NCBI GenBank assembly: GCA_022846035.1
Contig: AP025580.1
Span: 620,001-684,000, forward strand
Length of the DNA: 64,000 nucleotides
Direction: 5' to 3'
Origin: Christensenellaceae bacterium
GTDB taxonomy: Bacteria; Bacillota; Clostridia; Christensenellales; Christensenellaceae
Part shown: piece by piece, positions 1,569 through 7,017 of the stretch
Layout: the number at the start of each line of letters is the position of its first letter
Position numbering within the stretch: position 1 is the stretch's first letter
Position numbers and translations under genes: made by a program
Notes under the pieces: generated by a model
What the model saw: the letters and a program-made list of their open reading frames with translations, nothing else
What the model was told of the DNA's origin: nothing
Database searches by the model: none

Positions 1569-1633
1569 AGCATGCGTTCCTCGTTTCGCGTTCATTATAG
1601 CACCGGACAGGGAAAAAGGCAAAATCCCTATGT

Positions 1634-1660
1634 TATAATATACGCCGCTTATGGTATAAT
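1634..1660 (+). promoter_or_regulatory. Tandem extended -10 elements upstream of argH
   Basis: TGTTATAAT (TATAAT at 1634-1639) and TGGTATAAT (TATAAT at 1655-1660) both carry the TGn extension, which can compensate for the absence of a clear -35. The second lies about 35 bases before the argH start. Confidence 0.5.
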
Positions 1661-1694
1661 AAACAAGTATGAAAACAGAGCAAGGAGAAGCGTT

Positions 1695-3074
1695 ATGCCG
1701 AAATTATGGGGCGGAAGGTTTGAAAGGAATACGGACGAATTTGCAGAGGGCTTCCAGTCTTCTATCGGGTTTGACTGCCGCATGTACCGCGAGGACATCA
1801 CGGGGAGTATCGCGCACGCGCGTATGCTGGGCGAGCAGGGGATCATCCCCAAAGAGGACGCAGGGAAAATCATCGAGGGACTGAAAGGTATTTTAGAAGA
1901 TATTGACGCGGGCAAGGTGGAGTTTTCCGTACACGACGAGGACATCCACATGAACGTGGAGCGGCTTTTAACGGAGCGCGTCGGCGACGTGGGAAAGAAG
2001 CTGCACACAGGACGCAGCCGCAACGACCAGGTGGCGACGGATTTCAGGCTGTATATGCGCCGCTCGGTCGACGAGACGACACAAAACCTGATACAGCTAT
2101 GCGGCGTGCTTATCGACATAGCGGAAGAAAACACGGACACGATTATGTCCGCTTATACGCACCTGCAAAAGGCGCAGCCCACGACGCTCGGGCATTATAT
2201 GATGGCCTATTTTGAGATGTTCTACCGCGATATAGAGCGGCTGATTGACTGCCGCAGGCGCACGAACATCCTGCCCCTTGGGTCGGGCGCGCTGTGCGCG
2301 ACGACATACCCGCTTGACCGCGCGATGGCGGCGGAAGAGCTGGGGATGGACGAGATTACGCGCAACAGTTTAGACGGCGTATCCGACCGCGATTTTGCGC
2401 TGGAATATTTGTCGGCGGCTTCGATATGCATGATGCATTTATCGAGGCTGTGCGAGGAGATCATTTTATTTTCCACCAACGAATACGGCACGCTGCGTTT
2501 ATCGGACGCGTACTCCACTGGGTCGAGTATCATGCCGCAAAAGAAAAATCCGGATATGGCGGAGCTTATACGCGGCAAGACGGGCAGGGTATACGGCGAC
2601 CTGATGGGCCTGCTGACCGTTATGAAAGGGCTGCCGCTCGCGTATAACAAGGATATGCAGGAGGACAAGGAGGGCGTGTTTGACGCGGTAGATACGGTAA
2701 ACGCGTGTCTTCAGGTGATGTGCGGAATGCTCAAGACGGCGGAATGGAAGAAAGATATGCTGCGGCTGGGCGCGGGACGTGGTTTTACCAACGCGACGGA
2801 CGCGGCGGATTATTTCGTGAAGAACGGCATGGCGTTCCGCGACGCGCACGCGGTAGTAGGGCATTTGGTGCTTTACTGCGAGCAGAACGGCAAAGCGATC
2901 GACGAACTGACGCTTGAGGAAATCCGGAAGTTCGCGCCGGACGCGAAAGAGGACATTTTTGACGCGATCAGCCTTACGACCTGTGTGAACACGAGGAGCG
3001 TACCGGGAGGACCCGCGCCGGAAGCGGTGAATGAGCATATCCGGCAGGCGAAACGTTTATTGGGCGAGCTTTAA
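1695..3074 (+). CDS. argH: Argininosuccinate lyase
   Basis: Last enzyme of arginine synthesis: splits argininosuccinate into arginine and fumarate; a cytosolic tetramer. The 459-residue protein begins MPKLWGGRF and has the superfamily signature GSSIMPQKKNPD, plus LHTGRSRNDQVATD and TVLGHYMMAY-like segments of the active site. The ATG at 1695 follows AAGGAGAAGCG, giving the usual family length. argG lies 4 kb away on the opposite strand, so the two final arginine genes are not co-transcribed here. The stop codon lies inside a 22-bp palindrome (3071-3092). Confidence 0.97.
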   Translation: MPKLWGGRFERNTDEFAEGFQSSIGFDCRMYREDITGSIAHARMLGEQGIIPKEDAGKIIEGLKGILEDIDAGKVEFSVHDEDIHMNVERLLTERVGDVGKKLHTGRSRNDQVATDFRLYMRRSVDETTQNLIQLCGVLIDIAEENTDTIMSAYTHLQKAQPTTLGHYMMAYFEMFYRDIERLIDCRRRTNILPLGSGALCATTYPLDRAMAAEELGMDEITRNSLDGVSDRDFALEYLSAASICMMHLSRLCEEIILFSTNEYGTLRLSDAYSTGSSIMPQKKNPDMAELIRGKTGRVYGDLMGLLTVMKGLPLAYNKDMQEDKEGVFDAVDTVNACLQVMCGMLKTAEWKKDMLRLGAGRGFTNATDAADYFVKNGMAFRDAHAVVGHLVLYCEQNGKAIDELTLEEIRKFAPDAKEDIFDAISLTTCVNTRSVPGGPAPEAVNEHIRQAKRLLGEL

Positions 3075-4258: not shown

Positions 4259-5605
4259 TCAGGACACGTTTTTGGCGGCCGCAGGATGCTTTTTGAAAAA
4301 GCGCAGCATGAAAATGAGCGCGCATACAAAGGTCAAAATCTCGACGGCGGGGCCGGCCATCCATACGCCGCGCAGTCCAAAGAAACGGGGTAGGAGCAAA
4401 ACAAACGGGATAATGAGCGCAAAGCCGCGCAGCGCGGAGATAACAAAGGACGGACGCGGACGGGCAATGGACGCGAAAAACGAGGTCGCCACGATGTTCA
4501 TGCCCGCAAAGAGGAAGCCGAAGAAATAGACGCGCAGGCCGTCCACCGTGAGGGCGGCAAGCTGCGGGTTGTTTTCGCTGTTGAAAGCAGCCGCGATCTG
4601 TGACGGAAAGAAAAGGCCGATCAGGAAAAATGCCAGCCCAAGGCCGGCCGCGATCGCCGCGCCGCCAATATAGACATGCCGTACGTGGTCCATGCGGCCC
4701 GCGCCGTAGGAGTGACTTAAGACGGGCTGGATACCCTGACTGACGCCGGTGAAAATGGCAATACACACCAGCGATAAGTTGGCGACGATACCGTAGGCCG
4801 CCACACCGAGATCGCCCGCGATGCGCAGGATGGTAAGGTTAAAGACAAAGATAATCACGCCCGAAGAAAATTCCATGATGAAAGAGGGAAAGCCGGTAAA
4901 GACCGATTTCCTGATTTCCACGCCGTTAAATTTTGTTTTTTGGAGCCTGAAATTGTTTTTTTTGCGCAGGAAATGCAACGAGAGGATCGCCATGCTCAAA
5001 ATAGGGGCGATACCCGTGGCCAGGGCCGCGCCGAAGATACCAAGCCGCAGGGGGAACACAAAGATATAATCGAATACGATGTTGAAAAGGCAGCCTGCGA
5101 GCATGGCGGTCATGGCGAGGCGGGGATCACCGTCGTTGCGGACAAACGCGACCAGGAGGTTATTTAAGATAAACGCGCACGAGAAGAGCATGAGCATTTT
5201 CAGGTAGGTGGACGTCATGACGACGATATGTTCGCCCTCCGCGCCGAGGAGGATGGCAAGCGGGCGGTTAAAAAGCATGCCGCAGGCGGTGAGGATCACG
5301 CCGCACACAAGGGCGACGGCGGCGGCCTGCGTAAAGATACGGTTTAGGGAATCCCGTTTGCCTTTGCCGATGGCAATGGAAAAAAGCGTGGCGCTGCCGA
5401 TACCTATCATCAGGCCGATACCGTTGATGAGGCTGAAAACGGGGATGGCGAGGTTTAAAGCCACAAGACCATCCGGCCCCACGCCGTTGGCGACGAAAAA
5501 GGTATCCGCCAGCACGTAAAGAGACAGGCCGAACATACTGAGTACGTTTAAGGAAACATACTTTAAAAAGGTGGCGGTGATGTTTTGGTTGTTTATATTC
5601 TGCAT
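4259..5605 (-). CDS. MATE-family multidrug/toxin exporter
   Basis: A 448-residue inner-membrane exporter of the MATE (NorM/MepA/DinF) superfamily, expected to use Na+ or H+ gradients. Twelve hydrophobic segments can be traced; N-terminal landmarks are FLKYVSLNVLSMFGLSLYVL and ANGVGPDGLVALNLAIPVFS, and the mid-protein repeat includes GVSQGIQPVLSHSYGAG. The ATG at 5605 follows AAGGAGAG; the frame remains open 36 codons further upstream, but that part covers a terminator in the leader. Preceded by a consensus promoter and attenuator-like leader (5606-5759). Substrate unknown. Confidence 0.9.
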   Translation of the reverse strand: MQNINNQNITATFLKYVSLNVLSMFGLSLYVLADTFFVANGVGPDGLVALNLAIPVFSLINGIGLMIGIGSATLFSIAIGKGKRDSLNRIFTQAAAVALVCGVILTACGMLFNRPLAILLGAEGEHIVVMTSTYLKMLMLFSCAFILNNLLVAFVRNDGDPRLAMTAMLAGCLFNIVFDYIFVFPLRLGIFGAALATGIAPILSMAILSLHFLRKKNNFRLQKTKFNGVEIRKSVFTGFPSFIMEFSSGVIIFVFNLTILRIAGDLGVAAYGIVANLSLVCIAIFTGVSQGIQPVLSHSYGAGRMDHVRHVYIGGAAIAAGLGLAFFLIGLFFPSQIAAAFNSENNPQLAALTVDGLRVYFFGFLFAGMNIVATSFFASIARPRPSFVISALRGFALIIPFVLLLPRFFGLRGVWMAGPAVEILTFVCALIFMLRFFKKHPAAAKNVS

Positions 5606-5759
5606 ATCGCTCTTACTCTCCTTACCAAATAAAAAAGGCCCGTGCGTATCCACAGGCCTAACAATACGAATCCTTACCATTTGGGAGCACCCGGCGGTGC
5701 ACAGCTTTCCCACTTATTTCATTGCTTGCCATTATAGCAAAGGGGGAGGGGGGTGTCAA
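5606..5759 (-). promoter_or_regulatory. Consensus promoter and attenuator-like leader of the MATE gene
   Basis: On the minus strand TTGACA (5759-5754), exactly 17 bases and TATAAT (5736-5731) form a perfect sigma-A promoter. The roughly 120-base leader holds a GC hairpin (GCACC-gccg-GGTGC flanked by TGGGA/TCCCA) and then an intrinsic terminator (AGGCC...GGCCT with T6, 5659-5631) placed before the ribosome binding site. A short frame from ATG 5680 (MVRIRIVRPVDTHGPF) crosses the terminator and is in frame with the exporter, but lacks a clear ribosome binding site. This layout suggests transcription attenuation, either by translation of a leader or by a ligand-binding RNA; I do not recognise a known riboswitch class. 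Confidence 0.6.
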
Positions 5760-5802: not shown

Positions 5803-7017
5803 TTAGATTTCCTTGTCCTTTAACGCGAGCGCGCGCATCTTAAGCGGCAGGCCAAAGAGGTTGATGAAGCCCTCCGCGTCCTTGTGGTCGTATACCTCGT
5901 CCTCGCCGAAAGTCGCGAATTCTTCGATGTACAAAGAGTAAGGCGACTGGATACCGACATGTTTGCAGTTGCCTTTGTAAAGCTTCATGCGCACGGTTCC
6001 GGTGACTGTCTTTTGCGTCTCTTCCACAAACGCGGAGAGAGACTCGCGCAGGGGACAGAACCACTTTCCGTCGTATACAAGCTCCGCGAATTTGGTGGCG
6101 ACACCCTCTTTATAGTGCATAGTATCCTTGTCGAGCGTCAGAGTCTCCAGCGCGGCGTGCGCCGTATAGAGGATGCGTCCGCCCGGGTTTTCGTATACGC
6201 CGCGGCTCTTCATGCCGACGAGACGGTTTTCTACGAGATCATCGATACCTACGCCGTTTTCCGCGCCCAGTTCGTTTAATTTGGTAATCATCTCCACCGG
6301 ACCATATTTCTTGCCGTCTATGGAAACGGGGATACCTTTTTCAAATTCAATCGTGAAATAGCACGGCTTGTCCGGTGCCTGTTCAGGCGTTTTGCAAACC
6401 ATGTACAAATCGTCCTTGGGCTCGTTCCAGGGATCTTCGAGGTCCGCGCCCTCGTGCGACAGGTGCCAGATATTCGCGTCCATGCTGTAGTTATGCTCTT
6501 TATCGACTGGAACGGGAATGTTGCGTGCCTGCGCGTATTCAATTTCTTCCTCACGGGATTTAATATCCCAGATACGCCAGGGAGCGATGATGTCCAGTTC
6601 GGGCGCGAGCGCCTTGACCGTTAGCTCGAAGCGCACCTGGTCGTTGCCTTTGCCCGTCGCGCCGTGGCAGATCGCGTCCGCGCCGACTTCCTTTGCGATT
6701 TCAACGAGGCGTTTTGCGATGACCGGACGCGCGAACGACGTGCCGAGCAGGTATTTGCCCTCGTACATTGCGCCCGCCTGCATGGTCGGGTATACGTAAT
6801 CGGTGATGAATTCTTCCGTCAGGTCCTCGATATACGCGTCGCTGGCGCCTGTATGAATCGCCTTTTCATACAGGCCGTCAAGCTCCTTGCCCTGGCCGAC
6901 ATTACCGCATACTGCGACTACATCTTTTACGCCGTAGGTTTCCTTGAGCCACGGGATGATGATGGAAGTATCAAGACCGCCGGAATATGCGAGAACTACT
7001 TTATTATACTGTTTCAT
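5803..7017 (-). CDS. argG: Argininosuccinate synthase
   Basis: Condenses citrulline and aspartate with ATP to argininosuccinate, the step before ArgH. The 404-residue protein starts [18 protein letters not shown], where SGGLDTS is the N-type ATP pyrophosphatase loop, and continues with [24 protein letters not shown] and [14 protein letters not shown], all typical of the family. The start at 7017 follows AAAAGGAG. Its promoter (7069-7103) overlaps two ARG-box-like sequences, so arginine repression by ArgR/AhrC is likely. It stands alone, divergent from ruvC. Confidence 0.97.

Follow-up and report, generated by a model that had tools for sequence, protein, structure and literature searches.

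The leader of a MATE-family exporter gene in the window (the whole 64-kb stretch of DNA analysed here) probably controls the exporter as a guanidine-IV superfamily riboswitch that turns transcription ON, and its ligand is most likely guanidine (guanidinium) or a close relative. This interpretation is drawn from sequence comparison: the promoter, the P1 loop, P2 and the terminator are conserved, and an independent covariance model supports membership of the superfamily. In the window RNA the conserved AGGCC of loop 2 also serves as the terminator 5' arm, and hairpin P2 (CGUAU/AUACG) and the terminator are mutually exclusive; RNAs of this kind are referred to as overlap type. An outward extension of P2 forms the terminator in standard RNAs. 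All coordinates are collected in Table 1.

Table 1. Features of the MATE gene and its leader, with positions in the window.
Feature	Position	Strand	Layout and evidence
Promoter	5731..5759	(-)	-35 TTGACA 5759-5754; extended -10 TGcTATAAT; -10 hexamer 5736-5731
Hairpin P1 up to apical stem	5687..5711	(-)	Basal GGGA 5711-5708, bulge, apical stem GCAC/GUGC (5700-5697, 5690-5687), loop CGCCGG 5696-5691; loop conserved, stem varied; P1 covariation in standard RNAs
Loop-1 kissing bases GCC	5693..5695	(-)	Loop 1/loop 2 match in R2 matches; GCC/GGC in 17/17 overlap-type RNAs
P1 3' basal strand UCCC	5683..5686	(-)	Fold only
Candidate anti-terminator hairpin P2	5645..5668	(-)	CGUAU 5668-5664, loop UGUUAGGCCUGUGG 5663-5650, AUACG 5649-5645; 4-7 Watson-Crick pairs in 17/17 overlap-type RNAs; aligned by R2
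Loop-2 kissing bases GGC	5656..5658	(-)	Inside conserved AGGCC 5659-5655
Intrinsic terminator hairpin	5636..5659	(-)	5' arm AGGCCUGUG 5659-5651 (loop-2 bases), loop GAUACG (6 nt), 3' arm CACGGGCCU 5644-5636
Terminator U run UUUUUA	5630..5635	(-)	Sequence
Shine-Dalgarno region AAGGAGAG of MATE gene	5616..5623	(-)	Sequence
MATE-family exporter gene	4259..5605	(-)	Regulated gene; ATG start 5605; PF01554; TIGR00797 above cut-off

The MATE gene and its leader

The promoter agrees with the consensus at 12/12 positions, has a 17 bp spacer and carries a TG ahead of the -10 element. It is the sole perfect promoter in the 64-kb window, where 0.014 would be expected by base composition, and perfect promoters with identical spacing were found in 6/6 Christensenella leaders, the window's included. 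Counted from a start inferred from the -10 element, the leader extends for about 95 nt downstream of the promoter. A preliminary description of this DNA had reported a perfect promoter and a terminator in the leader of a MATE exporter, and both were confirmed, the terminator with its U run at 5659-5630 and the MATE ATG at 5605. From the pair it read constitutive initiation and conditional elongation, and our results favour this as the leader's probable logic.

The gene upstream of MATE on the same strand is argG. Between argG and the MATE promoter a terminator-like hairpin is visible in the alignments, and the MATE gene therefore looks like its own unit. The genome of the window contains 8 MATE-like matches, so this MATE protein need not be the sole exporter. 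Two genes near MATE, argG (5806-7017, minus strand) and one that by eye is argH-like (1572-3074, plus strand), place arginine genes beside a guanidine-type switch. At L010, argG seems to be kept as a neighbour, judged by eye from its C-terminal sequence.

The genome of the window is Christensenella-like, the best three of the named loci belonging to Christensenella. A close MATE homologue was found in each of 6 Christensenella genomes, the other five being 68-84% identical to that of the window, and the leader was present in 6/6 of the genomes examined. There it follows a common plan of P1 (loop CGCCGG, varied stem), a linker of variable length, CGUAUUGUYAGGCCUNNGGAUACG and the terminator. Thermodynamic folding of the window leader is unremarkable (z -1.56; 12/200 shuffles fold equally well). 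The case for a structured RNA, a possibility raised in the preliminary description, is a comparative one, and the comparisons below support it.

Relationship to guanidine-IV riboswitches

The guanidine-IV riboswitch, also named the mepA motif or GGAM-1, is described in the literature (Lenkeit 2020, PMC7736828; review, PMC12186494; smFRET study, PMC11611296) as two hairpins with kissing loops and a terminator, associated with SugE (SMR), PnuC and MATE genes. The reported guanidine binding range is ~64-210 uM (PMC11611296, PMC7736828). The window RNA resembles it in having P1, P2, possible kissing loops, terminator control, the loop-2 bases G71 and G77, and a MATE gene downstream.

A covariance model, R2, was built from 21 standard RNAs, none of them from Christensenella. 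Six training RNAs lie upstream of SMR genes (L158, L160, L167, L169, L171 and L180); L165, also SMR-upstream, was left out for its P2 register. Searched against the 64-kb window, R2 yielded a single match at E values up to 10, and this match was the leader (5700-5646, 28.2 bits, E 1e-5). Altogether R2 matched 5/6 Christensenella leaders at 20-31 bits: L009, L010 (31.3 bits), L012 (26.7 bits), L014 (25.0 bits) and L013 (20.5 bits). L042 was matched only at E 0.87, and no match at all was obtained at L011, at L020 or in the MATE-proximal RNAs of L105, L108, L112, L113, L115 and L116. At E 0.01, 27/80 MATE loci were matched, 10 of the 27 being in the training set. Whole-genome searches gave matches in 4/6 Christensenella genomes at E 0.1 (G003 and G005 were missed) and in 69/391 genomes of the class at E 0.001 under stricter filters, where the 69 did not include the genome of the window, and G000, G204, G317 and G379 were missed.

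Thirty class-wide R2 loci were studied, mostly the best-scoring ones out of a larger number of matches. The genes following 26 of 31 whole-genome R2 loci comprised 15 PnuC, 9 MATE, 1 SMR and 1 without a match; for the other 5/31 no downstream protein was taken. PnuC, MATE and SMR are the published transporter classes of guanidine-IV, and their occurrence after R2 matches supports membership. The kissing pair in the 28 classified R2 matches was ACC/GGU in 24 and GCC/GGC in 4, with no mismatch; these matches were found without a kissing filter, and 4 of the loci are also in alignment A6. In A6, which excludes 7/28 aligned loci, mostly for P2 register (L017, L018, L043, L056, L118, L145 and L165), 252/252 cells of P1, the kissing pair and P2 form standard pairs, against 73% for shuffles and 28-41% for a slid partner; members were picked for P1, P2 and kissing, a selection that partly accounts for the full pairing but not for the exchange of pair types. 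In many more distant MATE leaders an NRCCGG loop can kiss with an AGGYC loop, and these elements were also found upstream of Lactobacillales SMR exporters at 7/30 SMR loci (the six in R2 and L165).

Rfam 15, searched at gathering thresholds and at E values up to 10, returned no riboswitch in the leader, and its weak matches were mostly terminator hairpins. It likewise matched 0/18 loci that we had assigned to the superfamily by reading (11 standard, 5 of these SMR-upstream; 5 overlap-type; 2 whose loop 2 bears a further hairpin), which explains the leader's missing Rfam match; the guanidine-IV family seems to be absent from the Rfam 15 library. We regard the leader as very probably a member of the guanidine-IV (mepA/GGAM-1) superfamily. 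The orphan RNA considered in the preliminary description would then be a relative of a published riboswitch.

Model R1 was built from Christensenella leaders and matches them by construction, and was not used as evidence. A second R1 match in the window's own genome (L120, 31 bits) had the look of an ordinary AGGCCUGCG terminator, with no P1 loop or P2, and was rejected. Beyond Christensenella, R1 matches in the class scored 19-32 bits and mixed standard members of the superfamily with terminators that were apparently chance matches. The core pattern was not matched in viral contigs.

Loop 2 as a terminator strand

According to PMC7736828 and PMC12186494, the guanidine-IV aptamer contains the terminator stem, and this was called a new or unconventional mechanism. 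In the window RNA, by contrast, P2 excludes the terminator and loop 2 is the terminator 5' arm. The standard arrangement, with AGGYC unpaired with the terminator 3' arm, was found in 28/28 classified standard R2 loci; 31 loci were examined for this pairing, three unclassifiable ones (L202, L216 and L220) were dropped, and R2 itself favours the standard type. The overlap type comprises 17 loci including the window's: L009-L014, L042, L020, L105, L108, L112, L113, L115, L116, L232, L240 and L243. Two of them, L020 and the singly mismatched L011, were included after reading the sequences.

Within the 9-bp terminator helix, 116/117 cells are paired (99.1%) in an alignment (A7) of 15 overlap-type leaders with 13 distinct rows, from which L042 and L020 were left out because of other hairpin lengths. 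Both-sided (compensatory) changes occur at 3/9 pairs. As 14/15 rows were picked by script for at least 7 pairs, the percentage is partly due to selection, but the compensatory changes are not. P2 occurs in the overlap type in the versions CGUAU/AUACG, UUGUGUA/UACACAA, UUGUACA/UGUACAA, UUGUGC/GCACAA and GCAC/GUGC, and was tested sequence by sequence, since no column-wise alignment of P2 was possible between the two overlap-type groups. Shuffles reach the P2 pairing in 0.15-5.5% for 16 of the RNAs and in 11.5% for L020, so that P2 taken alone is within chance in L020 and weak in L011 (5.5%). The retention of P2 with varied sequences, together with the compensated terminator, indicates that both of the mutually exclusive helices are kept. 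The kissing pair is invariant within the overlap type; its covariation in standard relatives suggests that the window RNA uses it too.

A strict overlap-type pattern matched 35 of 391 class genomes. These matches were mostly chance-like, and a backward control matched too; among the matches listed, reading suggested a real overlap type in at least 6/391 genomes (G000, G001, G002, G204, G317 and G379). Judged by eye, the overlap type precedes two MATE types. It often lies behind a PNPOx-like gene (PF12900 in L240 and L108, others by eye), and at L105 (169-216), L108 (277-326) and L112 (280-329) a standard guanidine-IV-type RNA is followed by the PNPOx-like gene, an overlap-type RNA and MATE, the overlap-type RNA lying ~550 nt after the standard one. 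This tandem arrangement suggests that both RNAs respond to one signal.

Loop 2 doubling as a terminator strand seems to be a new wiring relative to published guanidine-IV members. No such overlap was found in the accessible parts of PMC9788692, PMC11611296, PMC7736828, PMC12186494 and PMC8632094, although published alignments may include it, and among the papers searched none named both 'guanidine-IV' and 'Christensenella'. Direct competition is a logic that the window RNA has in common with other riboswitches (a typical overlap), whose aptamers differ. Guanidine-IV has been singled out for an aptamer that contains the terminator stem, and a natural set with direct competition is of interest for that reason: with identical loops, the two types would provide matched platform pairs for one aptamer and let the working of the standard ones be tested.

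Loop-2 positions and the candidate ligand

In the standard numbering of the present analysis, position 75 is U in 27/28 R2 matches and in 20/21 training rows; in the overlap type U75 is kept in 2/17 RNAs and lost in 15/17, the window having a G. A79 is present in 28/28 R2 matches and 21/21 training rows compared with 10/17 overlap-type RNAs (lost in 7/17); the window keeps A79, but inside P2. G71 and G77 are present in 17/17. By a mapping inferred from text, the window would have the equivalents of the L. lactis binding positions G66 and G72, the counterpart of G62 would be a window G located three bases ahead of AGG, a position shared by 25/28 R2 matches, and that of U67 a window C facing the loop-1 G, as in the SMR-linked L167 and L171. 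The change of U75 in the window and of A79 in part of the overlap type distinguishes these RNAs from guanidine-IV, and because of these losses we call the window RNA a variant of the superfamily and not a plain member.

SMR proteins were found in none of the 6 Christensenella genomes examined, and in 1/22 genomes reached through MATE loci (PF00893); MATE and SMR may replace each other. The relationship, the gene class and the absence of SMR together make guanidine the best guess for the ligand and so a candidate for inducing a MATE exporter in this genus.

In an alternative that we find doubtful, the window RNA would combine the shared fold with the overlap platform, but its changed loop 2 would recognise a different guanidino or cationic compound; the same has been proposed for the Gd4v motif. 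The 3' half of loop 2 is unlike that of standard RNAs (U75 is changed to G in 15/17, besides the loss of A79). In the Gd4v paper (Lenkeit 2022, PMC9788692), guanidine was bound by one of three RNAs tested, and only weakly, no ligand was found, and MATE genes occur under both guanidine-IV and Gd4v motifs. However, the U-to-G change creates a G-C pair in the terminator helix and may therefore serve termination, and L012 and L013 retain U75 with identical architecture. The constancy of G71 and G77, the missing Gd4v hairpin D2 and the tandem with standard RNAs at three loci also argue against this alternative.

Gd4v and the window RNA have a common superfamily, an occurrence in gut bacteria and MATE among their gene classes (PMC9788692). 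They differ in that the window has a terminator without the D2 hairpin, and in that MATE follows and not the transaminase PRK07324, to which over half of Gd4v examples are linked according to the same paper. The latter difference weighs little, as MATE is also a Gd4v gene class. The D1 position, as described there, is never G in Gd4v; both candidate D1 positions in the window, chosen by elimination from the text, are G.

Proposed mechanism

In the mechanism we propose, RNA polymerase would initiate constitutively and P1 would fold first, exposing the loop CGCCGG. Transcription of loop 2 and AUACG would next allow P2 to form and its GGC to kiss the GCC of loop 1. Ligand would hold this P2 and kissing state, block the terminator and allow transcription of MATE, whereas without ligand the terminator would win and transcription would end at the U run. 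The MATE protein would presumably export the ligand. With the terminator 5' arm held within the P2 loop and its kissing interaction, the ligand-bound RNA would prevent the terminator directly.

The computed energies are -16.7 kcal/mol for the terminator vs. -3.2 kcal/mol for P2 (without ligand or kissing energy), and -25.4 kcal/mol for terminator and P1 vs. -11.9 kcal/mol for P2 and P1 (without kissing energy). With the terminator outweighing P2, the switch would be off by default; turning it on would require kissing and ligand to keep P2 in place for a sufficient time. When growing prefixes of the leader were folded by plain folding, P2 was never the best structure at the lengths tried before the terminator, and other linker hairpins won, which suggests that P2 needs the kissing pair or the ligand. 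AUACG is finished 9 nt ahead of the terminator 3' arm, pointing to a short decision time.

A terminator that is strong alone, a P2 disfavoured by plain folding and a folding z of only -1.56 would also suit a promoter that is simply constitutive, followed by a terminator that damps expression without any sensing. We consider this very unlikely, because the loops (C/U)GCCGG and AGGCC are conserved, P2 is kept by differing sequences, and R2 provides an independent match. Hardly credible is a leader-peptide attenuator, as suggested in the preliminary description, in which translation of MVRIRIVRP... would choose between the hairpins: the stretch MVRIRIVRPVDTHGPF does cross the terminator and continues in frame into MATE, and RIVRP-like residues reappear elsewhere, in different leaders and reading frames. 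In the nearest relative (L010), however, the ATG of this stretch is replaced by ATA; no Shine-Dalgarno sequence lies ahead of it, conservation of start codon, frame and ribosome site is lacking among the six Christensenella leaders, and the nucleotide changes fall where terminator pairs compensate. Where the preliminary description had looked to homologous leaders for a conserved structure or peptide, the six Christensenella leaders have the structure in common and not the peptide.

Further leaders

At L240 (1500-2254) an overlap-type RNA precedes a SfLAP-family membrane protein (PF11139); this is a single case, and SfLAP was not found named as a guanidine-riboswitch gene class in the accessible parts of the literature consulted. 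L044 has a standard-type RNA (296-354) ~650 nt upstream of a MATE gene and apart from it. In two further MATE leaders, at L052 (~827-920) and L049 (~774-870), loop 2 seems by eye to bear an extra hairpin like D2 of Gd4v.
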